NCBI GenBank assembly: GCA_914767715.1
Contig: OU612072.1
Span: 7,254,001-7,318,000, forward strand
Direction: 5' to 3'
Source: Membranipora membranacea
Lineage: Eukaryota > Bryozoa > Gymnolaemata > Cheilostomatida > Membraniporidae
DNA length: 64,000 nt
How positions within the stretch are numbered: position 1 is the first letter of the stretch; each line of letters starts with the position of its first letter. The notes under the pieces were generated by a model. It saw only the letters and a list, made by a program, of their open reading frames with translations. It was not told the origin of the DNA and made no database searches. Below are positions 8,625 through 63,056 of the stretch, piece after piece. The translations under genes were made by a program, and so were the position numbers.

Positions 8625-8996
8625 ATTTCCACACCGATTTCCAAGAACCATTGTACCATTGAACCATTTCCAAGAACCATTGATTTCCAAGTTCCGATTG
8701 TAGAACCACACCGATTTCCAAGAAGAGATACACACTTACTTAAACCTCCATTAGACAACTTAAACCACAAAATAGCAACAAACTTTAATATTTTACCCTC
8801 TTCATTGAGAAGCACTCTTACTTTGAATATGTTTAAGAAAAGGCTAATGCAACATTTTTTCAGTTTATTGGCATAGTCTTATATTTTTTGTTGAATCTTT
8901 GTTTGTATCATTTTTCTTTTTTGCCATTTATGTCACATCATGAAAAACATTTAAAATAATGAATTGTTGCTGACAATAAAAGTATATATATATATA
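8625..8996 (+). mobile_element. 5'-truncated non-LTR retrotransposon 3' end inserted in the unit A OTU exon
   Basis: The segment is absent from units B and C and is flanked by short ATATCT repeats. Its plus-strand reading frame ends in NILPSSLRSTLTLNMFKK and then a stop at 8876, which resembles the C-terminal end of LINE reverse transcriptase ORFs (WNxLPxxxRxxxSLxxFKxxL). It closes with a TA-repeat tail. It is opposite in orientation to the host gene and breaks the OTU reading frame. Confidence 0.7.
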
Positions 8997-9584
8997 TATC
9001 TAGGTCTTGTTCAGTAAGATCATTTCTGAATGTTTTTCTCAGCATTGTCAGCTTTAAAAGGTTGGCATTGTTGTGCATAAATATGCAGGTTCTAACTCTG
9101 AGTTCGAATGCTTTGTCTTCAGAGCCAAAGAGCAGCCAGCATACAGAGTTGAAGAGGCAACTACCATCCTTACTAACATCAATCGGTATGAGATTTGTGA
9201 CAGACTGGCGCCTAAAATGAAAGATTGATGATTTGGATAACATGCGGTTAAAATCACAAGGTTTCATATATATATATATACAATTTCATTGCATCAACCA
9301 TCACCTGAAGATGTTCTCCCTCATGTGCAAAAAAAATCAACAAAACCAAAAAAATCAAGTTAAGCGATTCGTCAGCAATACTTTGCGCAGGTTTTGGAGT
9401 ACCTAGAATCTCAAAATTCAACTGTTTTTGCATCATGTACCCGCAAATTTAGTTATCTCAAACATATAGTTATATCTTATGAAAGCTTGTCTTCCTACAA
9501 AGCTGCTCTTAGCTCGATGCTACATCAAGCAGTTTTCAATCCTGAAACTAAATTCTGCAAGTTTTGGTGTACACCAACATAATA

Positions 9585-39007: not shown

Positions 39008-42000
39008 CTATTTCAGTCTGCAGTAAATAATCTCATCTGAATCAATCTGATCTAGATCCTCGGAAGACAATACCAGCTGATCACCTTCTAGTTGGATATC
39101 CGTAAGCCTAGTAGATGAATTACCAAGATCTAGGTCCAGATTCTTCACATAATTACCTTCAAAAAGAAATTAAAATTATCATAAATCCCTAATATCCAGG
39201 TAAATTTGGTAACCAAGGATTAGGCTTTGTATTTAGAGTGTATTGTAGAGTGGAAAAATTCTTCAGCTGTCAGGTGTTAAGAAAGAGCATGTATTAGTTA
39301 ATATTTTGTTGCATCTTGAAAATACAGAGTTAACGATGCCTTATTATTATTATGTCAGAGCTTAATTGTCTAATAATCTTGGTAATCCAGGAACTTCGGA
39401 GCATTTTGCGACAATCTTTAACTTGAGCAGACAGAAAAGCATTGCATAACAATAATATGCTCCCTACAATAATTTATCAGACATACCTGTGTTGATATCC
39501 AGTACAGAGATAGATGTGCTGTAGAAATCTTTTACCAGCACATAGCGCTTAGCGTAATTAACTACAGAGGCCGGGCGCATCACATGAGTAGATGTCCACT
39601 CTATCTCTTCTGTAGTCAGGTTTAGCTTGTATACTTTGCTGGTCCAACAGCTAGTGATGATAACAGAGTCATCTCCAGCCTCACATATACATGAGGTCCA
39701 GCTAAGCTGAGTACAGGGAATGTGTCTGATGATGTCACCAGTTAGTGAATACACAATGAGCCTCTTATTAGATACATCACCTGCTATCACATGAGATCCT
39801 AATAAAGCTAACATATTATGGCAATTAAAGTGACTACTGTCAGGATGATACCATGAGGTAATAAGCTGACCTAGCATATTATAAATGCATAGTCTTCTCT
39901 TATCCTGAATCTCCTGAATTACAAATATTTGATTATTTTTAGCTCTGATACTCTCTACACGTTCCCCTGATTGTAAAGAAGTAAATATTGTCTCATTTCC
40001 CTGAGAATCAATCTGTGATATTGACCCATTGGATCCTACATATGTAACCCCTTTATACTGGCAAATGGTCATGGGAAAGCAGCCTAAAGATAATGTTTTG
40101 ATTGTATTTATAGCAGACGGTGGTTTGATATTTTTGAGCACAGACTGATTGTTGAGGCTGATTATGAAACTCTCTGCTGCTGTAAGCTTCACCTCTATGT
40201 CTCTACTCTCATTCTCTGGAAAAAAAATCTTAGAGTGATTACCAATGCCTGAGTTGATTGTCAAATGACCAAAATAATCTAAATAATATATTACAATACA
40301 TAATTTTAATTATTTGTATTAAAAGGATCTTTGAAATGTGTATTTACCAGTATTAACCCATACCTTTGATAGTAAAGAAAAAAAGAGTAAAATGAACGTT
40401 TTTAGATAAATATTGATTCAAATGGTGCACAAATTTTGGAAATCACTTTGAATGCGTAAAAAAATTGGAATTTTGGTGTCCACTCAATTGGATTCAAAGC
40501 TAAGTTATATAAACACACCTTGGATAACAAATATTACCTGTTAGGAGAGGTTCTATAACAGTGTTCGGTACAATAAGATCCCTGTGCTGACTCTCCATCA
40601 TTTCTGACAGCTTTCTCTCTATCTGGGTTTTCTCCTTCAGCAGGGAGATCTGATGAAAAGAGAGTTTACATTACAGTGATACAGAGCTGCACAGGACCAG
40701 TACTCCCATATTTTAATCCCCGAAAATGATTTGTGATCTAAAGTGTGGAAATTGGATTTGTCTTCTCATTTGTGACAAGGAGCCAACAACTACAGTTTAT
40801 CATCATAACAGCATGATTTTGTTGAAGGTATATAGATGCAGATGAAATCGAGTGATAGACAAATATGATAATCACTGATATGTTTAAATTTTTTTGAAAA
40901 AGATTATACCCAAATCACAGGATTATTGCGAAAGTATGAAAGGAAATATGTGGACCCGCACTGTGTCCAGTATGAAACTAATTCGAGAGAGATTCGAGAA
41001 ATTCGAGAGATATGAAACTAATTCGAGAAGCTGATCTATCATTAGATATATATATATATATATAATGTATATATTTATATATATCTGTATACAATATATA
41101 TGTTACATGTTGTACCGTAGACATACAAATAGACAGTTTTCTGAGGTCTGATTTAGGCTTGAAAAAGACAAGACGAGTCTGCGTTCCACATACATCAACA
41201 TGAATCCATTTGACAATTGACTCGTCCCAAGTAACTTGTGATTTGAGTTATCAACTTACCCGATTGCAGGGATCAAACATATATCTGATTTTCTTCATCT
41301 CTTCACAGATACCAGTATACTTGATATTGTACTGCGATACTGACTCCTTACTTTCTCTTCTGTTCTGTATAAATTCAGCTTCCAGCTGTTTGTATTTCTC
41401 ATTAATTGCCTCGATCTGCAAACATTAGCAGGCGAATTAATCTAAGTAATGATTAACCATATCGTCATGAGAAAATACTTCGCTCATATCCTTACTCCTT
41501 GTAGCTGCTGACCCCAACATCAAAACCATTTCTGTTCAGAGCAACAAAATCAGCGACTAAAAACTAATCAATAACAGTTTTCTTGCCAAAGTTGTCATTG
41601 TCAACAAAAGAAATTGAGATTAATCTATAAAGGCTGGTAGAGAACAAAACTCTTCACCCTACAAGTTTGGCCCAGTGATTCCGTCTAATGCTGAGTCATG
41701 TCCCAAGATTGACAATTTATAAGATACAGCTAAAATGGAACTTTTCCCTTCCAACAGATCTAAGATCACTATAGTAATTTTGTTTCAGTCTTTGAGGTTT
41801 TTTGATGTCCATGCACCCATTGTCTTCCGACAATCTAAATCCTTGAGACGAATGGTCCCTCAGCAGTGCCTGCAGACAATTCAGAGGCAAATTTACACAC
41901 AGACCTGCTGATCACGAGTGTGATGTATAGATCTTACTCCATCACCAGTCTCTTCATCCCATTGAGTCAGTAAATCTGAAGTCTGACTTATAACTTCAGT

Positions 42001-45000
42001 GAACCCTTCGAGTTTCCCTTCTGCACAAGATTTCAAAGGCTCCAGTTTGGACCGAATCCTTTCTGCAAGCTGGGAGAGTGGTATATACTTGTGTGATGAG
42101 CCTGTAACTATAACAAAAATAAAGTTTCGGATTCGGTTGTAAAATTTTATCAATAGCAGCAATTTAGTTAAATTATGACATTTCCTGAATTATATTGACA
42201 TGGCGCTGGTCAAACCCAATTCAATAGTTTGAGATGCAAAATTAGGAAGAATACAAATTATGTGCCTCTTGTTAATATTTGGGAAATAAATGCAACAAAT
42301 GTTGCAAAATTATTATTACCCAAACAGAATGTGGTTGGTGAGTTTAGGCAGTTACAACAGAACATCTCACAACAGTTTTCACATCCCACAGATGATTGTT
42401 CTGCGCGGTGTATGCTACAAAATGTCCCTTCTTGTAGTGATATTGTGTCCGTGGACTGCGTATGATGAGCTGATGTTCTCCAGTTGTCTGTCCGGCCAAC
42501 CATTGCAGCTTCATCTGTAAGCGATGGTGACTGGGCTATATCCATTATTGGTCGAACTAACTGCACTACCTGGTGAGGAGACACAATAAGCACGATGAAT
42601 TTCAGGCTATTAGTGTGGTGGCATTTGTACATATAGAACAATGACAAGGCATCAAATTTTATGGTGTAAAACTAGAGAAGAACCCCCAGTGATTTCATCG
42701 ACTTCTATTTACTTCAAGCTGGGCTTATGGCCGTGCATAAACACAAGATATTTGTAAAGCTGGTGGTACAATTTAGAGTTTTTGGAAATAGGTGGCTCAT
42801 TATTGCCAGTTTATTACTTCTACCTTGCCCGCTGGCTTGTTGCCTGCTTGTTTACATGGCGGTCGACTCTGATTAGTCTCAATCAGCACACATTCATATT
42901 GTCTACTGTCAATGTTAGCATCAGCTTCAGGATGAAAACCTGTAAAAATCAGACAGGATTATTTAATGAGAACAATAGACCATGTGGTAAATCCTTATGG
43001 CTGCATGCCTGGCTTTTGAAGTGTGTAGAGTGCGTATGAGAGGACATTGTGGCATGTGGAAATCTTATCAAATAAAGGAAAAAAGAGAGGCAATTTGGAA
43101 TTCATTTCAATGTAGGAAACCAGTCATCTCATATGGTAGAGAGTGTTACCAGTTTAAATTGAAGACAGAATACAATAAATTTGTGAAAATTGTCTATTGA
43201 GTATTTAAAATTTGAGCCTTTGAAAAGGTGCATTGATCTCTGCCTTAAATAAAAAAGCAAGATCCACCAGCTTACGCTTTAGTCGGCTTATTGTGAAATG
43301 AGCGCAGCAGCAAGAAAGAGCATGCTCTGCAATAAAGTTATTTTGACTTTACGTTAATTTAAAATAGGCGCCTCCATTTACGGTTCGATAGATTGATAAA
43401 GTGAATACATAATGATGGCGAGTCTCTAACTAGCACTACATAAGCTGATGTTCTTTAAGACATAAAGATGACAATGGCAACAGGTGAATCAATTTTTTCC
43501 ATGGTAATAATATTTAACTACATGTAAAGTGTTATAACCTTGATGTGGAGAAGTGAGAGCAATGAGGCCTTCTGCTGCAAGGGTGGCTTCTGGTGTAGGA
43601 GGGTTACACAAATCAATGGATGATATAGAAAGGGGAGCAGGCATTCCCTCTCTGCCATACTCAGAGGGTGATATTGATAGATTTTTATCATCTGATAATG
43701 TCTCATCTGTCACCTGATGATGGAACTCATCTGATGACAAGCTGAAGTTGGGCTGTGGTAAGAAAGAGTCAAAAAATCAGGGTAAGGGTTAAGAGATATC
43801 GAACAGTGTAATTAAAAGGACAACTCCAGACTGCCTGTCATTATATACCATGGGACATGCTCAAGAGATTTTGGAGATTTGTACCAAACTCCCTAGAACA
43901 AGTTTAATCCGATTGCCTGCATTCCTGTTGCTCCATTCTACTGGTCACGCCGTGGATCGGGAGCGACTCAGAATGCAGTCAAATAGACCAAAGTTGGTCT
44001 ACAAACTCCCTAACATGCACTGATAAAAAAGTTAGACTTGTAAGACTTCTGATAAATGAGGATTTGAATTTGAAAGTTTATATTAATCAGGGGCAGTTAG
44101 GCTAATATGGAATAATCCTCCCAAATGCAATCAAAGCGTTCAAATTTGACAGATTTGACAGATGTCAAATGTCACAGAAAACTTTACCTCAAGATTAAGA
44201 GCACTGTTATCATCTTCACCTTGGCATCTGCACATCTGATATTTAATGTTACACCGCTGACAGAGAGGTAGATTGTCATCATCACCGTCAGCGCCTTCAG
44301 GGGAAAGTTCAGTAACGGTTGTAGGCAGGTTGGAAGGTACTGTCTGTAATCAAGGGTTACACTTTGTATACAGTTGAACATTCAAGGGAAAGGAAACTTG
44401 TATTCAAAGTTGATCGCGGTATGATATCATAATATTATTTCACACTTTAACACTTTAATTTATTTAAAAATGCTGTTGGCTAGCAGTCTATCAAAACTCC
44501 TCCCATACTAGCAAGTTATGCACCCCCGACAGAAAGAGACAGATTTATAATGACAGCGATAATTTTTCAATTTGACGAAACAAATCTGTTCCACCCGACC
44601 TCTTGCTAAGCGATAAAAAACTGCAATACTTACTTCATCTTTTTTTTCTTTACAAATACAAGGTACGAAGTGGTTTGGCCTCCATTTCCCTTGATCCAGC
44701 AGATCAAAAGAGGATTCATCGGTGCTTGTCCAGCTAATGACAATTCTTCGAACAGCTGTCCCTTCAGGCTTGATGGTCCCAGAAAAGAGTTCTCTTTTTG
44801 TGTAAGAGTTGTTGTGGCTGGGATAAATCACCTGTATTTCAACACTCAGATGTTGACTCAAAAAGAAGATGTCTACCATTGAGCTGTACTTTCTGGAATC
44901 GAGCATCGATCTGCTGTGGTTTTTAATCGCCCTCACGGAATCTTTAGCGACAAAGTCAGCGATGGATGATTGTAGAATCATATCTAGGTCTTGTTCAGTA

Positions 45001-48000
45001 AGATCATTTCTGAATGTTTTTCTCAGCATTGTCAGGTTTAAAAGGTTGGCATTGTTGTGCATAAATATGCAGTTTCTAACTCTGAGCTCGAATGCTTTGT
45101 CTTCAGAGCCAAAGAGCAACCAGCATACAGAGTTGAAGAGGCAACTACCATCCTTACTAACATCAATCGGTATGAGATTTGTGACAGACTGGCGCCTAAA
45201 ATAAAATATTGATGATTTGGTTAAAATGCGGTTAAAATCACAAGGTTTCATATATATATATATATAAATATATATATATATACAATTTTATTGCATCAAC
45301 CACCACCTGAAAATGTTCTCCCTCATGTGCAAAAAAAATCAACAAAAACCAAGAAAATCAAGTTTAGCGATTCGTCAGAAATACTTTGCGCAGGTTTTGG
45401 AGTACCTAGAATCTCAAAACTCAACTTTTTTCGCATCACGTACCCGCAAATTTAGTTATCTCAAACATATAGTTATATCTTATGAAATCTTGTCTTCCTA
45501 TAAAGCTGCTCTTAGCTTGATGCTACATCAGGCAGTTTTCAATCCTGAAACTAAATTCTGCAAGTTTTGGTGTACACCAACATAATAGTCCAGTGGCAGC
45601 CTACCAAAAATATGGCTAAAAACGCAAATTCATTTACGAAATTGGATGCATAAATTCCAAGAGTGGATTCTAGGGTAGTTTTTTGAGGCGGTCGCAATGG
45701 TGATGATTTACCTTACACAAAGTTGCACAATAGGCAGCAAATTGCCAAAAACGCTGCCAAAAATGGCCAAAATTGCTGTTCTTATGATATTTCAAAGGTC
45801 TGTCCCTCGCTCACCTTATGAGTTGCGCTGCTCAAACTCTGCAATCAGATTCATACATACCTTGGTCAGTTTTTGGTAAAATATCAGCATAATATCTCAA
45901 ATATTGAGTGAATAACCAAGCTTATAAAAAGTGATAGAGTGAAAAACGCTGCCAAAAAAAGGGAAAGTGATGAAAGAATGATGATATGGTTTCAAAACAG
46001 CCAAAATCTGAAAGCGCATGTCATAATTAGTGGATCTACAACTTTACATGGGTCTGCTATCATAAATAGCCGAGATGTGGCCAACAACGGTTGCAATACC
46101 CCCTTATATCACCTGTATATAACTATCATTGAAACGACACTACTTTTTCAATTTTGCAGACGCCTCGAGATCTGACTTTGAATATTCGTATTGATCTGAT
46201 TTTATTATGGTGGTTTTGTATTGACTCAATCAATGACAAAATAATTTTCTCTCAGCACTACGCAACTTCCTGATGATCCTTGAGGGAGTGAACTTTTGCT
46301 TTACACACTATATAACCTTGTAAAGACGACTATTATGATACTATAAAGGAATCCTAAGAATACGCACTATCTCAAAAAAGACACACTCAGAGCATTGAAA
46401 ACTGGTGTTATGCAATGGGAGGGTCAATACACAGTCACCATACAAAAATCAGATCAATACAAACATTTGAAGCCTGTTTTTTAGGCAGAAAAAGTAGTTT
46501 CACTTTAATGATAGTTATACACAGGTGATAGAAGGGGCATTGCAACTGTTGTTGACCGCATCTCAGCTTTTTATGATAGCAGACCCATGTAAAGTTGTAG
46601 ATCCACTATATTATGACATGCTCTTTCAGATTTTGGATGTTTTGAAACCATATCATCATTTTTTGATCACTTTCCCTTTTACCGGCAGCGTTTTTGGCAA
46701 TTAGCGACCCATTGTGCAACTTAGTGTAAGGTACATTGTTACCATTGCGATCAGCGTGAAAAACTGTACCAGTAACAACTGACAAACCTTATCCATCCAA
46801 AAGTGCAAATGGAAGTGACAAGATAGGCAGGGGCTGCCACCGGACTATAACAACATCAATATTCCCAATTATTTACCATAATAATTATCAAAAGAGTCGA
46901 ATGTAGCAAATTTCTTTTCATCATTGTCTGTATAATACGAATGTTGCTGGGCATAGGTTGAATTGGATTCAAACCAAAACTTGACATACTCTAGAATTTG
47001 CAAGAGGACAACTTTACCATTCCACAGATGCTTGAAACAGCTAGATTAGGCTAGCTAACAAATAAACACCTACTTTATAGGCTCCCATGCCACCTAATGA
47101 GCTAAATTAAACTCTAGCCAACTAGACAAACTCTAGCTAACAATTACACACCCACTTAAGCCCAGATAGACTCCAACCCCAACTAACTATTAACAAGTTA
47201 ACTCAGACTCTAGCTAACATTAACTAGCATATGTAGCCCTACATATAAGCAAGAAAAATACTTTACCTGAATATCTTCTCAGTGACTCTATCCACATTTA
47301 CATTGCGCGCCTTTGTACTAACAGCGATTGGGACGTGAAAAAACTGATCAGCCTGAAAATAAAAACACCTGATATAGCATGATCTCAAAGCTAAGCAAGA
47401 ATTTGGACATCATATTGGCTAAGAATCTAATAAATAAAAATACTCACTGCGGGTAGGGCGTTGGCCCAGTCCTCCTGTGTTTTGAGAGTGTCTGCCAGCT
47501 CCCTAAAGTCTAACTTCCCCGGACATCTGGGACTTTGAAAACCTACAGAGGCCAAAATATTTTTCTGGTTTAGACTGGAATACAGAATAATTAATTTTTT
47601 TCAAGGAGACAAACTCGCTGACTTTGTAGAGCTTTCCTATATTCAATTACTTGATCATCTCTGTGGAACCATTAAAATTCCGATATCACATAAAGCATAT
47701 CTACCAAAGTGTTTAATTATAAGGTACAGGATGTGAGATAGTATATACAGATGCCTTATTAGGAAGTCTATTTTTAATTGGACCAGCTGCCATACTATTC
47801 CTCTAGTGATATGGCTTCAGTGGGATTTACTAGATCTAGATCTAAAGAGCAATAAAAATGTGTGACCAAGGAGTTATCCTTTGATTGATTCACTGAAAAG
47901 TCACTCATTTTATCTTGGTCAGCAACCTCGACTGTTTTTATTCAAACTTTACTAAACACACGAATCTTAAATATTTACCCTCATCCTGATGTTCTCCAGA

Positions 48001-48267
48001 TACTTTGCTCGGGACTCGCGATTTTTCTTCTTTTGGCCTATCACCGGGTTTGTGCCTTTTCCGTGACAATAAGGCGGGAGATGAGTCGTATTTGGCCCAA
48101 ATTTCATTCCTTTTACTTTTGATATTATAAACTGTGCGCTCAGCTATTCCGTACTCCTTCGTAATGTCATCCACAGTGAACCCCTGATTAATCTTACCCA
48201 AAATCTCAATTTTCTGTTTACCACTTAGATCCTTTCTTTTATGCTTTGGAGTTTTGTTGGAAGCCAT
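39008..48267 (-). CDS. Unit B HTH-OTU-B-box-coiled-coil-propeller gene, intact, 13 exons
   Basis: Exons: 48267-47979, 47542-47448, 47352-47267, 45195-44634, 44343-44188, 43752-43539, 42939-42824, 42569-42320, 42101-41905, 41415-41260, 40649-40538, 40215-39487, 39156-39008. All borders are GT-AG and phases join, giving 1036 residues. Order: pogo/CENP-B-like HTH (about 14-60, LSGKQKIEILGKINQGFTV); OTU protease (about 158-344) with DGSC (D172, C175) and WRPNHF (H332); CxxC...CxC segment (345-396); acidic PLS/PTP segment (397-467); B-box-like finger (C557, H560, C569, C572, C577, C580); helical coiled coils (590-744); beta-propeller (745-987); acidic tail. This suggests a deubiquitinase placed on a TRIM-like, RING-less scaffold whose propeller recognises a target. 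One gene is inferred from phase continuity; two adjacent genes remain possible. The exon 6 donor (GTTATA) is weak. Confidence 0.75.
39487..40215 (-). other. Hypervariable propeller exon of the unit B gene
   Basis: One exon of 243 codons with repeated blade-like strands: VTYVGSNGSISQIDSQGN, IRAKNNQIFVIQ, RRLCIYNMLGQLITSWYHP, RLIVYSLTGDIIRHI and KVYKLNLTTEEIEWTSTHV. It differs from the unit C exon (57004-56273) at about 45 residues, clustered in the segments joining the strands, while flanking introns hardly differ. Confidence 0.8.
40981..41080. repeat. Short ATTCGAGA and TA repeats in an intron of unit B
   Basis: ATTCGAGAGA-type copies followed by a TA microsatellite; the same tract occurs in unit C at about 57768-57870 with a shorter TA run. 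Confidence 0.7.
45586..46847. mobile_element. Foldback MITE-like element, copy 3 (unit B)
   Basis: Same termini and place as copy 2 in unit A: TAGTCCAGTGGCAGCC at the left, GGCTGCCACCGGACTA at the right, TA on both sides. It occupies the intron upstream of the OTU exon. Unit C lacks it, its corresponding intron being only about 206 bp. Confidence 0.75.
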
Positions 48268-48600
48268 GATGTTTGTTGATTCACTCTATAATCTAAAAAG
48301 ATGAAGAAAATACTTAAATATTGTTGCAAGCATTGCAAGCATTGCAAGCTACCACCGATCACAATCTAAGCGACCAATCCATTTGTAACAACTAATTACA
48401 ACTCTCTACAGGCTTTGATATGAATTTATGGATCAGTGGTGAAATACATAAAGTGGCTATTTGTAAAGATTTGCCATCAGTAAAAAGCTTTGTGTGAGGA
48501 TCACACTGCTTGCAGATTGACTTTGTGATACGAGTCTCTCTGCACGGTAGCGTTTGTATTCATCCAAAGGTGCTTGAGTTCCCAGTTCTCCAGTTCTGGT

Positions 48601-48939
48601 GGGATGACTTTTCTGTTTGAGAACTCCAGCACATTTGAATTGATTCAGTCACTACGGTGCAAAGATAACCAACCTATATTGATTGGTCAGGATCTAAATA
48701 AAGCTATCTGGCAGCTTTTACGTTATGCATTTGACGTCCCAGTAACAGCCTTGAAAAACCCAGGCAAGCTGCTTGACCAATGTTTACAACAGCCAGCAAT
48801 GATAGTTTCTAAACTTGTGGACCAATCAAAGATGCGGTCCAGCAACCAATACATAAATAGCATTGAATTCCATATCTGTAATAGCATCATTAGCTTTCTT
48901 TTGCAAAACAAAGGGCTTGCAAAAATAGCCAGTCCCTAG
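48601..48939 (+). other. Conserved plus-strand open frame upstream of the unit B gene
   Basis: Counterpart of 12601-12985, starting MTFLFENSSTFELIQSL and diverging from the HTH gene 330 bp away. The two copies keep the frame over about 80 codons despite a 15-bp indel, then end differently. No domain recognised. Confidence 0.25.
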
Positions 48940-49980
48940 TACCAATCTAGAAATGCCCTAATCATCGACACTGTATGGGGTATAATTACTGTTTGCAATT
49001 TTGTAAACAAGACAATTTCTCAGGCTAATTATCCATGCTACTAGGGACAGCCAATCAGATAACAGTCAGATGGGACCCTGTGTTTAGTGTCCTAACCGTA
49101 TAACGCTATGATACTATTTCCATTCTAAGAGAAGAATCTAATTCAGTGATAAATAGCCATCGCTTTCTCATGATCAGTTACATACTCCTCATCCAAATAA
49201 TGAAATGTATCAGTGTCTACAGGCATATGGATTGACCCTTTGATTGGATGTTTCCATAAGTTCTAGTCAAATTACTGCATCGATCGACCCAAACAAGAAA
49301 AGTATACTAGGTTGCCCCTCAATATCAAAATTCAAATAATACGCATTACATCTGATAGGACGCCCGGTCCACATTTCAACTTGACCAGTCATCATTTTGA
49401 TGTCAGAATAGTGTATTATGAACTCTAGTGTTTGTCTTTGATTTTTCTTTTTATTGAAGAGAGACACCTATTTTTACCCTACTAAGCTATAGGCCCTTTC
49501 CATAGACATTCTTAAATCAAAGTTTCTCACACAGAGCTATTTGTGTCCCATGTGGAAGGAGTATATCTAATACCTCATGAGCAGAGGTTGTACAGGTGGT
49601 GACCCGTCTTTCAGTGCCACAAGCTGCCGCCATACTTACTGAACTGCGGCGGTACAGGGAGTACGAGCTTGATTCATTTACTTTGAATAGCATTGTTACT
49701 GTAGGGAGAAACCTTAAAATCTAGACAAATATTATCTAGCCTATCTCCACCTGACCTAGATATATAAGCTGATAAGAAGCTCAGTTGATGATCTACCTCC
49801 CAAAAACCCTCCCCCCCCCCCCCGCAATGTATGTGTTAGAGAAGCTATCAAATATAAACGAATAGAATGTGTAGCCTTGTGTAGACACATCAGTTATCAC
49901 TGATGGCTTACCGTCTGACTTACTATGGTCTCAGAGCTACCTAAGCTATAGAATTCTCAGTGTAACGTTTGACATACAGA

Positions 49981-50005
49981 AGCTGCTGCTGCTGCTGCTG
50001 CTGCT
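49981..50005 (+). repeat. CTG/GCT trinucleotide run
   Basis: AGCTGCTGCTGCTGCTGCTG and on to TACTCAG; the unit A copy reads AGCCTGATGCTACTCAG, so the run expanded in unit B after duplication. Confidence 0.9.
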
Positions 50006-50889
50006 ACTCAGTACAAGTGTTGGTCTAACTCTGTGCGGTCTACTAACACGATAAATAGAACACTGCTATGTGACTGTGAATGTTTAACTGAGCTATAAAG
50101 TTAATGATGCAATAATAGACTTTGGTCCAACAGGAACATGTAATACAGGATTGTGAGTAAGGAAAAACTGCTTATTATAGCAACTGTTTACACAGTGTTA
50201 TCAAATCTTAGGCCAGAAAAGTGAGTCAGGGGATTTCCCAAATAGATGACGCCATCCATGGAACAACATTTTAAACATGGCAAAGCAGTTTAATGCCATT
50301 ATTGCCTCATTTTTTTCATTCAATACACAGTTAATATTCAGTTAATCTTCATTCACACTGCCAGTGTAATCCATACTTCATATTGACAAGGATAGAATCA
50401 AATTGTCGTTGATGGTATGTCATTGCCCCTGTACCCTAAAGATGGAGCACTTTCTTAACAACTGATCTTTTGGTTCCAATACTCGCCCTAATATATTTCC
50501 AAGGTTTACTCATAATAGACTGGCAATGTTGACCTCAATAGTTTGAAATGTTGCAAAACCTATCAACGGCTAAGGTACCATGCGGAAACAGACAGCACCG
50601 GACCAATTTGAAATATTGCAGTTCCATCAGTTTATTATATTGTAAGGCATTCCAACGGGTTAGAATATTGTAAGCTTTTTACGGAGAAAAATGTGCAATG
50701 CTTCAACAGCACCGCTGTAGCCAGAAAAGCGAAGCATATGTATCTGAGTTGAAGTGATCATTCAACATTTCTAGTTACAATTCCTTCAAACCCATACAAA
50801 CACCTTTTATTTCCTTAGAATTCACTGCAAGGCTGCTAAAATACTGGAGTCATCAGTTAAATTCCCAGATTTGTAGCAACACATGGATG

Positions 50890-51230
50890 GCGATGCTCTA
50901 GAATAGTTATCTACTCGGGCTAAGCCTTCTCCATAGTTCTTGCCCTGGGTATAATATGTTCAGTGCTAGGTATTTCAGTTCTCTCTATTCCTTGTCATTG
51001 TTCTTGTGACATGATAGAGAACCATGAGGAGCATGCGTAGGTGATGATTGGTCGAATACAAGCCTTATATAATTGTCTTATAGTAAGTACAGCAACTCCG
51101 GAGTGTTTGAAGTCGATAAGAGTGTGTCAATCAGGGGTGGGGGGGGGGGGGTGTTTTCTTGACGATGATACCAAGATGATTTTTCAAGTCAGATGGTTAT
51201 CTATCACCACCTTCAGGAATAAGGTTCTTT
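50890..51230 (-). mobile_element. Decayed LINE reverse transcriptase fragment (unit B copy)
   Basis: Minus strand reads TIRQLYKACIRPIITYACSS then WFSIM, slightly closer to the LINE consensus than the unit A copy (K for V). The insertion therefore predates the duplication. Confidence 0.6.
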
Positions 51231-52524
51231 CCACACATTGAATCATCTTCCCCATTCATAATGAAGTTAGTTGCAGGCGGAACATGATGTTTGTGCATGT
51301 TGGAAAATTGTACTGTCACAGATTTTTTCGCATTTGCTATCAGGTTGTGATTCTCACACCGGTTCTAAACATCATCAATTGTATGCTGTAAATCTGTTTA
51401 GCCCTACCAGCGCTGTTTGGTGTTATGATGAGGTCGTCAGTGGTTTTTATCAGGCTTCCATGTTCATTCGCTAAAGTGCCAACAATGCAACCAGAAGAGA
51501 GGCCCGCGGAGAGTGCCTTGGAGACCTGTGTTTTTTTTTGCAAATTGTTTTTCAAAATTCTGCTGACGTACCTAAGAGGGTAAAGTAATAGCAGAAGGAT
51601 AAGTTTGAGCACATGTATGGGATAGTAAAATAACAGCTATCATTCACTCAACCTAATAACTTTAAATTAACTCCATTCAATGCAAGTGAACATTTGTGCT
51701 AATTAACATCAAATTATCTCCAAACTTGCTAAACTTCACTTAACCAATATTAACCCCTATATGGTAGCTGGCTGTGTATTTCCTACACCAATCCTCTTCA
51801 AATATAAAAACCTGTACATCAATAGTTTAAAAAGCTCATAAACTCCTTGTTGATACAAAAGGATGGCCTGTGTCTTGTACAGAAACACCTCAAAGACAAT
51901 ATATAATAATGTAAAATTTTCCAACAGGAAAATTTGCACCGCTGTACTTATAGAAAATGGTGATGTGAGTTTGAATTCTCGATAGATCAAGACTTCTTTG
52001 AAACCCGAGACACTTTACGCATTCTAAGAGTCAATTAAGTCAAGAGTAATATATTTGGTGGATGTGAGTGAAACGTTATAAAAGTTACGCCAAAAGTCTC
52101 AGATGCAACACTTTAATGTCTAATCTGTCTGACAGCCAACTAATTTTTGGCAGTTACTCCATTACAATAAGTGTGAACCCAACAAATCATAAACAAATAC
52201 ATTGGTATGGTGATAAGACCTGCATAAACATTGAAACCCATATCAAGTTACTGCAGTTTACAGTTGAGTAGACACAATGTTAACACTTTGGTTATCACTA
52301 TATACAGGTAATGTGCAGAAGAATCTTATTATTCATGGAAATCCCACTATAAAGTGACCTCTATACTGCAGTGTTCTAATCAGCATTGGAGCAAAGACTG
52401 TCAAGACTATATTGTATTCATGAGTGTATGACAAAGTGTATGATAAATAAGTGCACATACACCAATGGTATAAATAAGTTGAGTTACCAACAGTGGGATC
52501 AGTGATCAAAAATTTCTGCCAGTG

Positions 52525-52793
52525 TCAAATATAGGCAGAGTCAAACAAAGCGTTGCTGCAGTCAAAATTGGTGGATTGAATGTTTTTGTATATGACAACT
52601 TCGAGCCGACTATTATTAGATAAGGAAAATAATTCTTGGAAATATTTCTTTTTATTCTTGATCATTATTCTCTTCTCGTAACCCTTTCGGCTATGCTGTT
52701 TGGTTGAATCTGACAACAAACCCTCAGACATCTGGTTGAAAAACTGTTCAGCACCCTTAGTCCCAATATCCGTCTGCAACAAACTTAAAGTAT
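52525..52793 (-). other. Conserved candidate exon (TDIGTKGAEQF frame), unit B copy
   Basis: Frame reads TDIGTKGAEQFFNQMSEGLL and the same Lys-rich continuation as 35692-35960. Conservation of the frame between copies is the only evidence of coding. Confidence 0.3.
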
Positions 52794-53189
52794 TGAAATG
52801 GCAACTCAATCCTTAGTAGGTTTACTAATCACAATAGTAACCTTTTAAACTTTCCTGCAAGGTGAATAACCTCATGTACACTATACTCTGTAGATTTCCA
52901 GTTTGCTGCTCGAGCTGAACCTGACAAGATACAACAGCCTGTAGATGACAGTGACGAAGAGGACGAATAGTCAACAGCAGTGATCAATATATCTTCGATG
53001 TGGCTGGTCAATCTTAGAATTATATAGGCGTATTTGTCCGTATATACATCAGCGAGAAACACAGCATTCCATAACAGCCTGTTACCTCAAGTTACTTTAA
53101 GTATAAAGACTGAAAATTTATAAAATCTCTCCCATCCTCCCAGCCACTACTCTCATATACTCTTCAGGTACATCTGCACTGAGTTGTAT

Positions 53190-53216
53190 CAGGGAGTTTG
53201 GCACCCAAACTCCCTG
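53190..53216. mobile_element. 27-bp palindromic micro-insertion
   Basis: CAGGGAGTTTGG, a 3-base loop and CCAAACTCCCTG, flanked by TTGTAT on both sides. The unit A counterpart at about 36340 has a single TTGTAT and no insert. The CAGGG end resembles hAT termini. Confidence 0.75.
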
Positions 53217-54634
53217 CTTGTATCTACACACAGTTGTGATGATCTTGAGAAGTTGTCTACTCCGACTCATATTACTATTATTTTGTATATTCCGAATATT
53301 GTCTTTTTATTGTCTTTTTATTGACTTTTAACGATTGTATGAATGCCGATAAAGTATAACTTACCCGTTTAATAATTAATAAAAGTTTGGTAAAGACTTA
53401 CTACTTGGTATTTTTGGAAGGTAAAAAGATACATGATTAGTGTTCGACATACAGTGCTGACAGGTGGATGGTGACTGACAACAGTGAATATAATGCTAGA
53501 GGAAGATGACATAGGTATTTATAACTTATGTGTCAGAGGACGATTTAACGCTATGCACAGAACGATGTAAATTATTTCTAGCTAATAGAAAAAATGATTG
53601 GTACAGATAGAGCTTGCGGACTGTTTGCGATATTGTAACTTTTCCAACCGCTAACATTATTTTAAGTGATCAGGCTCCTTCTCAGGAGAGACAAGTTGCA
53701 CTGATGTAGCAGAAAACTGGCCACATGGATTAGATTTGAGATCATTGCTTAACTTTGTTAGCAGCTCATTTCTTCCTTGGAAGCTAAATACTTTATGCTT
53801 CCTGAATCATATCAAACACAAGTTATATACTTCTATTCGGAGATGAAGCAAGGCAAATAACTTTAAATATTTCCATTACAATGTGTGTAGATCAAGTCAG
53901 GAGTCATCTGACAGTTAAGGGTAAGGATTTGTGATCTTATGATCCAGGTTCAATTACTGGCGTTGGCTGTGAATTTTGATTTGGCACTGGCAAGCTATTC
54001 ATCCTGGCCAGGTGTGATCAGAGCAGGCCATGAATACAGGAGGTCTGCTGAGTGCTTGCAGGCAGGACAAAGTACTGCCTCTTCAAAAAAGAATAGCTGG
54101 CAACGGCAGGCAAGGGTAACAGGTTTCTACCCCACACAAGCCACCTGCCCTTAAGATTGGCCCTGAAATAGGGTGGTCAAATAGAGACCTAGAGTATAGA
54201 ACAGTCACAATAACATTTAATTAACATATTATATTGTATTGTGATGAGGTATGCAGAAAATATCCAATCCAGTTGATGCAGTTTACACAATGCCAACTGA
54301 AGGAAGTCCCTTGGTTATCACAATATACATACTATATTATAAACAAGCTTATGTGCACTTCCATCTAAAGTAGAATCTTATTACTCATGGAAATCCCTCA
54401 TTAAGTGCACTATACGATCTGTTGATGTAGCCTGTCTCAAATACAGTGGTGATAATCTTTTTAGAATACTTCACATTGGTCTGTTTATCCGCCTGCATCA
54501 AGCCTAAACTAAACCCACAGTAGGTTTACTTATTTATTCAGGTGGTATTAATAGTCCATGGGGACTTTTGTTAAGAAAACGAATTAGAAAGAATGTCTTT
54601 TAAATCATGTTATCCTTCCTTTTTAGAACAAATG

Positions 54635-54930
54635 TTAAAATGGTCGAAGCAACACAAAACATCTTCCCAGGAAAAAATACTGTCTAAAATATTTGTCAGT
54701 ATTTATTTTTTTATTTGGTTCCTGCGTCCAGTAAATATTGAAATTCAGGCATAAACTGGCGACTAAAAAAATATTGCAGCTTATTGTCATGTACTCAGGT
54801 CCTTGGTCTATAAGCTTTCGCTCTGATTCTAGGGAATCTATTATTTTATTAACAGCCTGTAAGAGGTTTGGTATTGAGCGTCCGAAGTTGTCTTCGTCAC
54901 ATCTAATATTTGAAAAACTTGCCGTGTGTA
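54635..54930 (-). other. Conserved candidate exon (NIRCDEDNFG frame), unit B copy
   Basis: HTASFSNIRCDEDNFGRSIP and NKIIDSLESERKLIDQ, colinear with 37851-38177 apart from three missing codons. Confidence 0.35.
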
Positions 54931-55808
54931 TTACACCACTTGTCACTGACAGATTTAGATGATTTACTCCTGGTAATTGCGACAATGTATGAGTATAGTC
55001 AGTCCTCAAATTGCACCATTTCAGCAGAATTTATCTCTAACCTAGCTTGGTAAATAAATATGCAAGACCTCAACTAACTTGATTTGGTCCTCAGTTGTTG
55101 TGTTATTCCTGGTTGCGGATTGACTCTAAATTAAAAAAAAAACATTCAAATTTAACATGTAGGCCTAATTATTATTGAGCCTTTCAAGATTAAAATTGAA
55201 CTATCGAAATGGCCAACTGACTGTGGTATCATGGTATTTTATTGAAGGCGTAACCGTGGCCTGTAAGATTACAAACATTGTTACGACAGAACGGGACAAA
55301 ATTAAAACATTATAAAATAAGTAATTAAGAGCCTTCTGGACATTCGAAAATAGCATATAATTAAAGTGCACATATAAGGAAATGTCAAGATAAAGATCTC
55401 AAAGATTAATAACAGTTCTCACAGATAAACCACTCTATCAAGCGAAACATTAGCCACCTACAGATGTAAATACAAAACACTCCACTCAACCTCTTTGGCC
55501 TGCCAGACTGTGTCTGAATCGAGTAACACTAGTAGCACGAAGATTTGAGTTCTGAGTTAAAAATCTACGAAATAGTTGTGTACACTTAATGTGCTATTCT
55601 ATTATGGTCTAAAAGTGAATTTTGATTTAATCAAAAATCTTAATCATATATCTTCCCTCTCGTCAAAAAAGACAATTGAAGATGGATGGTACAGTAAATT
55701 TATTATCATAGTCAGTGAAAAGACATCTACCGTCTCTGGTTATATATATGTGTGCTGTTATAATTATTGTATAAATAACGATATAAAATAGTTTAATCAT
55801 TGTATAAA

Positions 55809-58800
55809 CTACTTCAGTCTGTAGTATATAATCTGATCTGGATCCCTGGAAGACAATACCAGCTGATCACCTTCTAGTTGGATACCCGTAAGCCTAGTAG
55901 ATGAATTACCAAGATCTAGGTCCAGATTCTTCACATAATTACCTTCAAAAAGAAATTAAAATTATCATAAATCCCTAATATCCAGGTAAATTTGGTAACC
56001 AAGGATTAGGCTTTGTATTTAGAGTGTATTGTAGAGTGGAAAAATTATTCAGCTGTCAGGTGTTAAGAAAGAGCATGTATTAGTTAATATTTTGTTGCAT
56101 CTTGAAAATACAGAGTTAACGATGCCTTATTATTATTATGTCAGAGCTTAATTGTCTAATAATCTTGGTAATCCAGGAACTTCGGAGCATTTTGCGACAA
56201 TCTTTAACTTGAGCAGACAGAAAAGCATTGCATAACAATAATATGCTCCCTACAATAATTTATCAGACATACCTGTGTTAATATCCAGTACAGAGATAGA
56301 TATGCTGGAGAAATCTGCTACCAGCACATAGCGCTTAGCGTAACGTACTACAGCTGTTGGGTCCTCCACATGAGTAGATGTCCACTCTATCTCTTCTGTA
56401 GTCAGGTTTAGCTTGTATACTTTGCAGGTCCACCGGCTATTGATGATAACAGAGTCATCTCCAGCCTCACATATATACGAGGTATAACTAAGCTGAGTAC
56501 AGGGAATGTGTCTGATGATGTCACCAGTTAGTGAATACACAATGAGCCTACCATTATATACATCACATACTATCACATGAGATCCTACTAAAGCTAACTT
56601 ATTACCGCAATTAAGAAAGATATGACTGTTAGGATGATACCATGAGGTAATAGGCTGACCTAACATATTATAAATGCATAGTCTTCTCTCCCTCTTATAA
56701 TTCTGAATTACAAATATTTGATTATCTTTAGCTCTGATACAATCTACAAATTCCCCTGATTGTAAAGAAGTAAATCTTGTCTGATTTCCCTGAGAATCGA
56801 TCTGTAATATTGACCCAATGGATCCTACATATGTCACACCTTTATACTGACAGATGGCACAGGGATAGTCGTCTAACGATAATGTTTTGATTGTATCTAT
56901 AGCAGATGGTGGTTTGATATTTTTGAGCACAATGTGATTGTTGAGGCTGATTATGAAACTCTCTGCTGCTGCAAGCTTCACCTCTATGTCTCTACTCTCA
57001 TTCTCTGGAAAAAAATCTTAGAGTGATTACCAATGCCTGAGTTGATTGTCAAATGACCAAAATAATCTAAATAATATATTACAATACATAATTTCAATTA
57101 TTTGTATTAAAAGGATCTTTGAAATGTGTATTTACCAGTATTAACCCATACCTTTGATAGTAAAGAAAAAAAGAGTAAAATGAACGTTTTTAGATAAATA
57201 TTGATTCAAATGGTGCACAAATTTTGGAAATCACTTTGAATGCGTAAAAAAATTGGAATTTTGGTGTCCACTCAATTGGATTCAAAGCTAAGTTATATAA
57301 ACACACCTTGGATAACAAATATTACCTGTTAGGAGAGGTTCTATAACAGTGTTCGGTACAATAAGATCCCTGTGCTGACTCTCCATCATTTCTGACAGCT
57401 TTCTCTCTATCTGGGTTTTCTCCTTCAGCAGGGAGATCTGATGAAAAGAGAGTTTACATTACAGTGATACAGAGCTGCACAGGACCAGTACTCCCATATT
57501 TTAATCCCCGAAAATGATTTGTGATCTATAGTGTGGAAATTGGATTTGTCTTCTCATTTGTGACAAGGAGCCAACAACTACAGTTTATCATCATAACAGC
57601 ATGATTTTGTTGAAGGTATATAGATGCAGATGAAATCGAGTGATAGACAAATATGATAATCACTGATATGTTTAAAATATTTTTGAAAAAGATTATACCC
57701 AAATCACAGGATTATTGCGAAAGTATGAAAGGAAATATGTGGACCCGCACTGTGTCCAGTATGAAACTAATTCGAGAGAGATTCGAGAAATTCGAGAGAT
57801 ATGAAACTAATTCGAGAAGCTGATCTATCATTAGATATATATATATATATAATGTATATATTTATATATATCTGTATACAATATATATGTTACATGTTGT
57901 ACCGTAGACATACAAATAGACAGTTTTCTGAGCTCTGATTTAGGCTTGAAAAAGACAAGACGAGTCTGCGTTCCACATACATCAACATGAATCCATTTGA
58001 CAATTGACTCGTCCCAAGTAACTTGTGATTTGAGTTATCAACTTACCCGATTGCAGGGATCAAACATATCTCTGATTTTCTTCATCTCTTCACAGATACC
58101 AGTATACTTGATATTGTACTGCGATACTGACTCCTTACTTTCTCTTCTGTTCTGTATAAATTCAGCTTCCAGCTGTTTGTATTTCTCATTTATTTCCTGG
58201 ATCTACAAACATTAGCAGGCGAATGAATCTAAGTAATGATTGACCATATCGTCATGAGAAAATACTTCGCTCATATCCTTACTCCTTGTAGCTGCCGAAA
58301 CCAACATCAAAACCATTTCAGTTCAGATCAACGAAATCAGAGACCAAAAACTAATCAATCACAGTTTTCTTGCCCAAGTTGTCATTGTCAACAAACGAAA
58401 TTGAGATTAATCTATAAAGGCTGGTAGAGAACAAAACTCTTCACCCTACAAGTTTGGCCCAGTGATTCCGTCTAATGCTGAGTCATGTCCCAAGATTGAC
58501 AATTTATAAGATACAGCTAAAATGGAACTTTTCCCTTCCAACAGATCTAAGATCACTATAGTAATTTTGTTTCAGTCTTTGAGGTTTTTTGATGTCCATG
58601 CACCCATTGTCTTCCGACAATCTAAATCCTTGAGACGAATGGTCCCTCAGCAGTGCCTGCAGACAATTCAGAGGCAAATTTACACACAGACCTGCTGATC
58701 ACGAGTGTGATGTATAGATCTTACTCCATCACCAGTCTCTTCATCCCATTGAGTCAGTAAATCTGAAGTCTGACTTATAACTTCAGTGAACCCTTCGAGT

Positions 58801-61800
58801 TTCCCTTCTGCACAAGATTTCAAAGGCTCCAGTTTGGACCGAATCCTTTCTGCAAGCTGGGAGAGTGGAATATACTTGTGTGATGAGCCTGTAACTATAA
58901 CAAAAATAAAGTTTCGGATTCGGTAGTAAAATTTTATCAATAGCAGCAATTTAGTTAAATTATGACATTTCCTGAATTATATTGACATGGCGCTGGTCAA
59001 ACCCAATTCAATAGTTTGAGATGCAAAATTAGGAAGAATACAAATTATGTGCCTCTTGCTAATATTTGGGAAATAAATGCAACAAATGTTGCAAAATTAT
59101 TATTACCCAAACAGAATGTGGTTGGTGAGTTTAGGCAGTTACAACAGAACATCTCACAACAGTTTTCACATCCCACAGATGATTGTTCTGCGCGGTGTAT
59201 GCTACAAAATGTCCCTTCTTGTAGTGATATTGTGTCCGTGGACTGCGTATGATGAGCTGATGTTCTCCAGTTGTCTGTCCGGCCAACCATTGCAGCTTCA
59301 TCTGTAAGCGATGGTGACTGGGCTATATCCATTATTGGTCGAACTAACTGCACTACCTGGTGAGGAGACACAATAAGCACGATGAATTTCAGGCTATTAT
59401 TGTGGTGGCATTTGTACATATAGAACAATGACAAGGCATCAAATTTTATGGTGTAAAACTAGAGAAGAACCCCCAGTGATTTCATCGACTTCTATTTACT
59501 TCAAGCTGGGCTTATGGCCGTGCATAAACACAAGATATTTGTAAAGCTGGTGGTACAATTTAGAGTTTTTGGAAATAGGTGGCTCATTATTGCCAGTTTA
59601 TTACTTCTACCTTGCCCGCTGGCTTGTTGCCTGCTTGTTTACATGGCGGTCGACTCTGATTAGTCTCAATCAGCACACATTCATATTGTCTACTGTCAAT
59701 GTTAGCATCAGCTTCAGGATGAAAACCTGTAAAAATCAGACAGGATTATTTAATGAGAACAATAGACCATGTGGTAAATCCTTATGGCTGCATGCCTGGC
59801 TTTTGAAGTGTGTAGAGTGCGTATGAGAGGACATTGTGGCATGTGGAAATCTTATCAAATAAAGGAAAAAAGATAGGCAATTTGGAATTCATTTCAATGT
59901 AGGAAACCAGTCATCTCATATGGTAGAGAGTGTTACCAGTTTAAATTGAAGACAGAATACAATAAAATTGTGAAAATTGTCTATTGAGTATTTAAAATTT
60001 GAGCCTTTGAAAAGGTGCATTGATCTCTGCCTTAAATAAAAAAGCAAGATCCACCAGCTTACACTTTAGTTGGCTTATTGTGAAATGAGCGCAGCAGCAA
60101 GAAAGAGCATGCTCTGCAATAAAGTTATTTTGACTTTACGTTAATTTAAAATAGGCGCCTCCATTTACGGTTCGATAGATTGATAAAGTGAATACATAAT
60201 GATGGCGAGTCTCTAACTAGCACTACATAAGCTGATGTTCTTTAAGACATAAAGATGACAATGGCAACAGGTGAATCAATTTTTTCCATGGTAATAATAT
60301 TTAACTACATGTAAAGTGTTATAACCTTGATGTGGAGAAGTGAGAGCAATGAGGCCTTCTGCTGCAAGGGTGGCTTCTGGTGTAGGAGGGTTACACAAAT
60401 CAATGGATGATATAGAAAGGGGAGCAGGCATTCCCTCTCTGCCATACTCAGAGGGTGATATTGATAGATTTTTATCATCTGATAATGTCTCATCTGTCAC
60501 CTGATGATGGAACTCATCTGATGACAAGCTGAAGTTGGGCTGTGGTAAGAAAGAGTCAAAAAATCAGGGTAAGGGTTAAGAGATATCGAACAGTGTAATT
60601 AAAAGGACAACTCCAGACTGCCTGTCATTATATACCATGGGACATGCACAAGAGATTTTGGAGATTTGTACCAAACTCCCTAGAACAAGTTTAATCCGAT
60701 TGCCTGCATTCCTGTTGCTCCATTCTACTGGTCACGCCGTGGATCGGGAGCGACTCAGAATGCAGTCAAATAGACCAAAGTTGGTCTACAAACTCCCTAA
60801 CATGCACTGATAAAAAAGTTAGACTTGTAAGACTTCTGATAAATGAGGATTTGAATTTGAAAGTTTATATTAATCAGGGGCAGTTAGGCTAATATGGAAT
60901 AATCCTCCCAAATGCAATCAAAGCGTTCAAATTTGACAGATTTGACAGATGTCAAATGTCACAGAAAACTTTACCTCAAGATTAAGAGCACTGTTATCAT
61001 CTTCACCTTGGCATCTGCACATCTGATATTTAATGTTACACCGCTGACAGAGAGGTAGATTGTCATCATCACCGTCAGCGCCTTCAGGGGAAAGTTCAGT
61101 AACGGTTGTAGGCAGGTTGGAAGGTACTGTCTGTAATCAAGGGTTACACTTTGTATACAGTTGAACATTCAAGGGAAAGGAAACTTGTATTCAAAGTTGA
61201 TCGCGGTATGATATCATAATATTATTTCACACTTTAACACTTTAATTTATTTAAAAATGCTGTTGGCTAGCAGTCTATCAAAACTCCTCCCATACTAGCA
61301 AGTTATGCACCCCCGACAGAAAGAGACAGATTTATAATGACAGCGATCATATTTAAATCTGACGAAATAAATCAGTTCCACCCGACCTCTTGTTAAGCGA
61401 TAAAAAACTGCAATACTTACTTCATCCATGTCTTCTTTATAAATACAAGGTACGAAGTGGTTTGGCCTCCATTTCCCTTGACCCAGAAGTTCAATAGAGG
61501 ATTCATCAGTGCTTGTCCAGCTAATCACAACTCTTCGAACAGCTGTCCCTTCAGGCTTGATGGCCCCAGAAAAGAGCTCTCTCTTTGTGTAGGGGTTGTT
61601 ATTGCTGGGGTAAATAACTTCTATTTCAACACTCAGAAGTTGACTTAAAAAGAAGATGTCTACCATTGAGCTGTACTTTCCGGAATCGAGCATCGATCTG
61701 CTGTGGTTTTTGATCGCCCTCATGGAATCCTTAGCGACAAAGTCATGTTCAGCAATGGATGATTGTAGAATTATATCTAGGTCTTTTTCAGTAAGATCAC

Positions 61801-63056
61801 TTCTGAATGTTTTTCTCAGCTTTGGCAGGTTAAAAAGATTGGCATTGTTTTGCATAAAAATGCAGTTTCTAACTCTGAGTTCGAATGCTTTGTCTTCAGA
61901 GCCAAAGAGCAACCAGCATACAGAGTTGAAGAGGCAACTGCCATCTTTACTAACATCCATAGGTAAGAGATTTGTGACAGACTGGCGCCTAAAATAAAAG
62001 ATAATGGATGATAATCAAGTCATCACCATCAGATCTAGAATGTTGAAGAATGTGTGAATAAAACTTTTGGGAGTTGCCCTCTCAAAATAGCAAACTTGGG
62101 GTTTGGCTAAGCTCAGGGCCTAACGATTTTTTACAACTTTACCAATCTAACCAATGAAGAGGAAGAAGAAGAAGAAGAAAGAACATTAATTTACCTGAAT
62201 ATCTTCTCAGTTATTAGGTCCACCCTTTCCATACAATTCTGGGCCTTTGTACTAACAGCAATCGGGATGTGGAAATGCTGATCATCCTGCAAAAAAAAAC
62301 ATTTTTTTTCCTCGTCCTTCAACTTAATTTTACAACAATATGGTTTTTCAAGACATCAAACAACAATAGGTGAAAACAATCACTGTCATGACTGCTTGAC
62401 ATGGTATCTGAATTCTCAGCGATTAAATCGATAGATGGAAGAGATGAACCCTAGACTTAATAATAAATAATAATAAAAAAAGTAATAATAAATAATAATA
62501 ATAGTAATAATAATTAATATTATTAAGTCTATGGATGTATTAGACTAAATTCATAGAGTGTACTTTAAGCGTGATCATGGAACTAAAGTGTGTGTTTGCA
62601 ACACTTATAATTTAATCGCTGTGTTTCCATGAGATTGAACTGAGCAAATTTCGGGACGGTTCGATCTATGATAATGCATCCTGGTTCGCGCTGAGCTCGA
62701 AGGTTCAGTACACGCTGTGTTGAGAGATCTACAGCGAGTCCCCGTGGCAGAGCATCATCAAAGGCTGCCGATCGAGAGACCCGGGATCAAGGCCCGAATG
62801 TGGCAGGTAACTTTTGAAGTTTCAGCTCGACCTTAACCCATGGAATTGGATGCATATTCTGAGGGCGAGCCAAAAGTGACAACTCAGCTCGAGCTCAAAA
62901 TTTACATGGAAACATGCAGTGATTTACCTTATCATGGAATGTTGTAAATTAAAAAACTTACCACTGGCAGGGAGTTGGTCCAGTCATCCTGTGGTTTCAA
63001 AGTGTCTGCTAGCACCCTGAAATCTAGTTTCGTTGGTTGCTTTGGTTGTTGAAAAC
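55809..63056 (-). CDS. Unit C HTH-OTU-B-box-coiled-coil-propeller gene, 5' end not in window
   Basis: Exons 2 to 13 by comparison with unit B: 63056-62962, 62286-62195, 61988-61421 (OTU), 61130-60975, 60539-60326, 59726-59611, 59356-59107 (B-box), 58888-58692, 58202-58047, 57437-57326, 57004-56273 (propeller), 55942-55809. All frames are open and GT-AG borders are kept. The OTU exon has DGSC and WRPNHF and two extra residues (EH) compared with unit B. The propeller exon has one extra codon. No counterpart of the HTH exon was found in 63057-64000, so it lies beyond the window or is missing. From about 61345 leftward to 57010 the sequence is nearly identical to unit B; to the right it is clearly diverged. 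Confidence 0.75.
62458..62525. repeat. TAA/AAT microsatellite
   Basis: Interrupted runs of TAATAA-type triplets in the intron between exons 2 and 3 of the unit C gene; absent from unit B. Confidence 0.85.

Follow-up and report, generated by a model that had tools for sequence, protein, structure and literature searches.

The window analysed here, a 64,000-nucleotide stretch of the genome of the bryozoan Membranipora membranacea (C8:7254001-7318000 in a 339 Mb, 18-contig genome), holds three copies of one gene, units A, B and C, which all lie on the - strand and belong to a tandem cluster of 15 units (unit B being u14 and unit C u15). These genes end in a propeller whose larger exon, exon 8, is hypervariable, and within this C8 cluster amino acid replacements are favoured on the top half of the propeller and removed elsewhere. 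Exons were placed by splice-like sites together with homology, in the order: possible CENP-B/helix-turn-helix (HTH)-like first exon, OTU-protease-like exon, exons 2 and 3, B-box-like exon, three coil-like exons, exon 8 (acceptor ttccag/AGAATGAG, donor ACACAG/gtatgt) and exon 9 with the stop codon.

56273..57004, - strand: unit C (u15) exon 8, propeller, hypervariable (alignment, AlphaFold2 model)
39487..40215, - strand: unit B (u14) exon 8, propeller, hypervariable (alignment, AlphaFold2 model)
2810..3142, - strand: unit A exon 8 fragment, ending after about residue 110
55809..55942, - strand: unit C exon 9 and stop codon; last propeller strands and C terminus (similar stretch contiguous with exon 8 in proteins P0007 and P0008)
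39008..39156, - strand: unit B exon 9 and stop codon
57005..57325, - strand: unit C intron 7, near-identical to that of B
55943..56272, - strand: unit C intron 8, near-identical to that of B (three deep types of this intron occur in the cluster)
57326..57437, - strand: unit C exon 7, coil-like by eye
58047..58202, - strand: unit C exon 6, coil-like by eye
58692..58888, - strand: unit C exon 5, coil-like by eye; would supply the remaining B-box-like zinc ligands
59107..59356, - strand: unit C exon 4, Cys/His pattern resembling a B-box by eye, without Pfam hit
60326..60539, - strand: unit C exon 3
60975..61130, - strand: unit C exon 2
61421..61988, - strand: unit C OTU-protease-like exon (PF02338, E 2.3e-4, 22.1 bits in the joined protein; cut-off 23.3)
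40538..40649, - strand: unit B exon 7, coil-like by eye
41260..41415, - strand: unit B exon 6, coil-like by eye
41905..42101, - strand: unit B exon 5, coil-like by eye
42320..42569, - strand: unit B exon 4, B-box-like by eye
43539..43752, - strand: unit B exon 3
44188..44343, - strand: unit B exon 2
44634..45195, - strand: unit B OTU-protease-like exon (PF02338, E 1.2e-4, 23.0 bits; cut-off 23.3)
47941..48267, - strand: unit B possible first exon, CENP-B/HTH-like, probably part of the gene (recurs in 10 of 11 units of its class)
4436..9210, - strand: unit A exons 7 to OTU, with exon 3 and the OTU exon each in two pieces
2111..2452, - strand: HTH-like exon, putative N-terminal exon of the neighbouring unit, u12, which belongs to a second, OTU-free class (weak Pfam HTH hits, E 0.03)
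977..1342, - strand: exon-3-like exon, putative second N-terminal exon of u12

The AlphaFold2 model of exon 8 is a confident propeller of five blades (predicted local distance difference test score, pLDDT, 85), to which exon 9 would supply a sixth. In two proteins from another source (P0007 and P0008, marked jgi) exon 8 runs into an exon-9-like end without an intron, as in a spliced transcript. The best structural matches of the model are NHL domains of the TRIM family (Brat, Mei-P26, TRIM2, TRIM3, TRIM71 and Thin among TRIM-NHL proteins), which in the proteins named belong to conserved regulators of low copy number. An NHL-type propeller at the C terminus, a feature of TRIM-NHL proteins, is thus found here, preceded as in those proteins by B-box-like and coil-like exons (by eye). 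Unlike them, the genes described here belong to a large family whose propellers are hypervariable on the top face. Those in the window look like TRIM-NHL proteins that have an OTU-like exon and in which no RING was detected. That exon contains DGSCLF and NHF, which are similar to the Cys and His boxes of OTU proteases. The joined exons of unit C, the first of which are uncertain, gave no Pfam hit to RING or to NACHT/NB-ARC, nor did the joined protein give one to SPRY (B30.2), its C-terminal domain being the propeller. Among the window proteins there was likewise no Pfam hit for B-box, a zinc-ligand pattern being visible by eye across exons 4 and 5, and no Pfam call for NHL.

Divergence and selection in the propeller exon

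Between units B and C, exon 8 differs at 80 of 729 nucleotides and at 47 of 243 aligned residues (one of them an indel), close to the 45 or so in 240 of the initial annotation, which had also placed this divergence island correctly (39487-40215 in B, 56273-57004 in C). Its flanks are near-identical, with 1 difference in 321 bases of intron 7 (2 in a differently trimmed alignment), 1 in 330 of intron 8 and none in the 112 of exon 7; at about 0.3-0.6%, the introns diverge less than the "base or so per hundred" proposed. Along 39.1-44.5 kb, the two units mostly show 0-2 differences per 100 bases, rising to 6-14 per 100 through the propeller exon. Exon 8 is not the sole island: the OTU exon differs at 45 of 562 positions (with an ordinary ratio of non-synonymous to synonymous divergence, dN/dS, of 0.30), a small second island at 41379-41579 (15/200) covers the start of exon 6 and the adjoining intron, and exon 9 differs at 7 of 134 positions, at what look like homologous blade positions. 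The variable residues of units A, B and C, with GYTPWA, GCFPMT and DDYPCA before ICQYKGVTYVGS, are exactly as first read, and the three-way coincidence of variable sites spans less than half of exon 8, because in unit A this exon stops at about residue 110.

With dN of 0.127 and dS of 0.095 in exon 8 between B and C, the synonymous divergence is far above that of the adjacent introns, and selection on point mutations alone therefore cannot make the island. Exon 8 is either older than its flanks or of outside origin. Clustering of synonymous changes beside replacements in exon 8 was unsupported (p-values 0.25 and 0.21).

The halves of the propeller were taken from the structure, not from a by-eye drawing of loops, and 37 of 43 B-C replacement sites fall in the top half (110 of 201 residues, p-value 1.4e-6). 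Across the 11 full cluster copies, the top half (111 of 201 residues) holds 40 of the 43 positions with at least three residues and all 20 of those with at least four. The 40 hypervariable top positions are richer in S, N, Y, C, R, F and W than the rest of the propeller, and poorer in I, V and L.

Among 10 distinct cluster copies (45 pairs), dN/dS is 2.61 in the top half (dN 0.195, dS 0.075, dN exceeding dS in 44 pairs), 0.31 in the bottom half (3 pairs) and 0.58 in the pre-propeller part. Leaving out u09, which bears a stop, gives 2.5 for the top and 0.31 for the bottom, and the codon bootstrap of pN/pS in 9 copies gives 95% intervals of 1.55-3.87 and 0.14-0.76, respectively. Control exons, each compared in 5 to 10 units (u07 and broken units left out, exon 5 only where it is 195 bases long), have ratios of 0.30 (OTU), 0.36 (exon 3), 0.46 (exon 5), 0.34 (exon 7), 0.80 (exon 4) and 0.81 (exon 6); exon 2 has no synonymous change, and exon 9 has a ratio of 0.73, with dN above dS in 18 of 45 pairs. 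The diversifying selection suggested by the initial annotation is thus borne out: the ratio is neither near 1 nor evenly spread, and the variable sites, mapped on the predicted propeller, avoid the bottom half instead of being scattered through the buried strands.

A mosaic exon in a tandem cluster

Exon 8 is full in 11 of the 15 cluster units (among them u09, with its stop), interrupted by an internal gap in two and truncated in two, including unit A. Four units (u04, u06, u10 and u12) form the second N-terminal class, with other upstream exons, a different exon 5 (47-50% alike) and no match to the OTU exon, exon 2 or exon 4. Of the other 11, seven have a full-length OTU match, two a broken one and two none, and 10 have the CENP-B/HTH-like exon upstream, the eleventh being unit C, for which the upstream stretch lies outside the fetched sequence.

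Mean pairwise differences in the 11 full copies, which include three deep intron 8 types, amount to 2.6% in intron 7, 8.5% in exon 8 and 16.5% in intron 8, and 53 of 55 pairs differ by 5.9-11.5% in exon 8. Both flanking introns are within 0.6% in four of the 55 pairs, three of which differ by 6.5-11% in exon 8 and the fourth (u08/u02) by 0.3%. Units u04 and u06 show no difference over exon 8 codons 1-150 and 26 differences thereafter, and their intron 8 types are unrelated. The pairwise homoplasy index (PHI) on 93 informative sites of exon 8 gave a p-value of 0.001, the floor of 1000 shuffles, and shared tracts were found in 5 of 45 pairs at the same floor, uncorrected. The second suggestion made for this exon, templated sequence exchange, is supported by these three observations, so that the data support both diversifying selection and templated exchange acting on exon 8.

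Distances in exon 8 correlate with those in upstream intron 7 (rho 0.50), and weakly with exon 7 (0.26) and intron 6 (0.21). They do not track intron 8 type (p-value 0.60) or N-terminal class (p-value 0.53), which implies recombination between exon 8 and its downstream flank, and between units of different N-terminal class. On this sequence evidence, OTU-class and second-class units appear to draw on one propeller pool. Breakpoints likely fall in exon 8 because the copies remain homologous in its framework strands and not in intron 8.

Other features of the window include a Kyakuja-Dileera-Zisupton transposase with a CxC5 zinc cluster (18722-20125, + strand, 467 open codons; one copy in the 224 kb cluster stretch), an integrase zinc-binding (H2C2) domain in a retroelement-like fragment (20834-21520, + strand), a tandem array of 122-base period (30840-32725, most copies 97-98% alike, the two end copies less) and a tandem repeat of 56-base period (13167-13702, copies matching the reference copy at 71-94%). 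Blocks of inverted and direct repeats common to the units (45939-46909, 3381-4359 and 9582-10888) are perhaps mobile elements. Eight other open reading frames in the window gave no Pfam hit at E 0.01.

Related propellers and the receptor interpretation

The genome holds at least 149 related propeller exons: scoring covered 149 of the 393 first-look candidates, and every one of these was a match. Of them, 58 lie in C2 (20.84-22.60 Mb), 15 in the cluster around the window and the rest mainly in C10, C11 and C6. In the 13 copies analysed from the C2 array (14 of its 58 were fetched and one twin was set aside), the top half holds 18 of the 19 columns with at least four residues (p-value 1e-4). A divergence island as a family-wide feature was considered and is unsupported, these copies being without one. 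A tblastn search with the cluster OTU exon and exons 3-7 against 9 kb lying upstream of a C2 copy (L047) found no match at E 0.05 apart from a single weak HTH hit. Two C11 arrays (2.21-2.46 Mb and 9.75-9.90 Mb) each contain several propeller-exon copies interrupted by a single in-frame stop, for the most part TAA in the first array and TAG in the second, which perhaps reflects duplication after inactivation, or a short intron.

On C10, a 9 kb piece carries on one strand, in order, a RING exon (26.2 bits, Pfam cut-off 21), B-box-like (zf-B_box 17.9 bits, below the cut-off of 24.1) and coil-like exons, and a related propeller exon, which probably form one gene. This order indicates that the wider family is TRIM-like, and the branch in the window appears to carry an OTU part where its C10 sibling carries a RING.

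An exon-level profile search of sequence collections returned 41 relatives, with none in the viral contig or genome contig collections. Whole-protein searches with the 838-residue joined model returned no relatives, probably because a length limit excluded single-exon proteins. In 13 collection proteins, enrichment of the top half is weaker (27 of 35 columns with at least five residues, p-value 0.002). Three of the relatives, P0001, P0007 and P0008, show no match above 88% to the full cluster copies over the whole aligned length and are new variants from other individuals or a related species.

We consider it probable that the cluster consists of TRIM-like receptor genes in which the top face of the NHL-type propeller is a germ-line recognition surface. 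From the pattern and the domains, such a recognition receptor would probably be innate-immune, with microbes or viruses as the most likely targets. Each gene would have coil-like exons followed by a propeller split over exons 8 and 9, with an OTU-protease-like module or some other part at the N terminus and, in the OTU class, a B-box-like exon ahead of the coil-like ones. The flanking introns are homogenised within sets of units, and exon 8 does not conform to these sets. The conserved framework strands would be homologous enough for gene conversion or crossover to take place within exon 8, also where two units have an unrelated intron 8 or N-terminal part. Selection would keep new loop combinations and purge conversions that homogenise loops, so that different N-terminal parts would come to share one propeller pool. 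On the target of the propeller, the OTU part would then edit ubiquitin, and the RING sibling would add it. It is tempting, if only tentatively, to extend this to combinatorial germ-line receptors, with loop cassettes exchanged blade by blade via the framework strands and modules swapped among OTU-like, second-class and RING effector parts; a single binding repertoire could then drive opposite ubiquitin outcomes.

Some observations weigh against a recognition surface under selection: the top half of the C2 copies has a dN/dS of 0.78, their introns are more divergent than the exon, and ratios above 1 were seen solely in the C8 cluster. The C2 ratio would also suit an account without special selection, in which exon 8 is an older segment with weakly constrained loops, spared homogenisation while the introns were converted. 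The mean synonymous divergence of exon 8 (0.073) exceeds the mean divergence of intron 7, and the exon is therefore older than its upstream flank, as that account expects; relaxed constraint, however, reaches a ratio of 1 and not 2.6 with nearly all pairs and the whole bootstrap interval above 1, and we regard it as distinctly improbable. Still more remote is an assembly artefact, with alleles falsely duplicated or units misjoined. Near-identical introns in B and C might suggest one, but about 4 kb beyond the OTU exon is common to A and B and absent from C within the window, three deep intron 8 types occur among the 11 copies, and further variants exist in separate sequence collections.

Two other alternatives concern what the surface binds. 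An allorecognition or other self-marker system under balancing selection, instead of pathogen defence, would fit the tandem cluster, the spread of exon 8 distances and the strong selection on the top face, and the collection relatives diverge from the cluster as variable alleles would. It is nevertheless unlikely, as the TRIM-like and OTU-like parts suggest a cytosolic protein, and the scored copies, on many chromosomes, seem more numerous than is usual for such a locus. The propeller might instead bind nucleic acid, as in several TRIM-NHL proteins, in an arms race with viral RNA or transposons, an idea compatible with a recognition receptor. RNA-binding NHL domains are among the closest folds, an HTH exon resembling CENP-B is found upstream in units of the OTU class, NHL domains are described in the available text as binding RNA on the top surface (PMC9070667), and TRIM56 is likewise described as restricting Zika virus in an RNA-binding-dependent manner (PMC6623546). 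The residues enriched in the loops fit protein binding at least as well, and we rate nucleic-acid binding as rather unlikely.

No report of a hypervariable NHL family appeared among the titles and abstract openings listed in searches of the open-licence literature. As far as the available text of their reports describes them, zebrafish NLR-B30.2 genes and finTRIMs form large families with positive selection in surface loops of the recognition domain, where gene conversion differs between the recognition and other parts and can combine substitutions within the recognition exon (PMC4852459, PMC2657112). The family described here is likewise large, with loop-focused selection and part-specific conversion in the cluster around the window; it differs in its NHL-type propeller in place of B30.2/SPRY, and in an OTU part that the same text does not mention for the zebrafish families. 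Fungal NWD/HET NLRs are described, again in partial text, as being under diversifying selection at four positions per WD repeat on the interaction face, with exchange among members (PMC4986451). Selection on a propeller face and exchange among family members are thus common to both, but the fungal WD repeats are described there as about 85% alike and shuffled as repeats, whereas the blades here look unlike one another by eye and form an NHL-like fold. Tachylectin-2 is also a propeller. In coral it is described, in the portion available, as a putative invertebrate recognition protein under positive selection (PMC2880987), as proposed here; it is a lectin homologue surveyed as alleles, and a TRIM or OTU part, a tandem array and an exon-limited island are unmentioned in that portion.

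These results put the NHL propeller forward as a possible hypervariable recognition module of animals, beside B30.2, leucine-rich repeats and immunoglobulin-like domains. With near-identical flanks and a clear top-face pattern, the cluster is well suited to quantifying how a germ-line repertoire arises from gene conversion and selection, and it raises the question of how an OTU protease acts when a variable receptor directs it.

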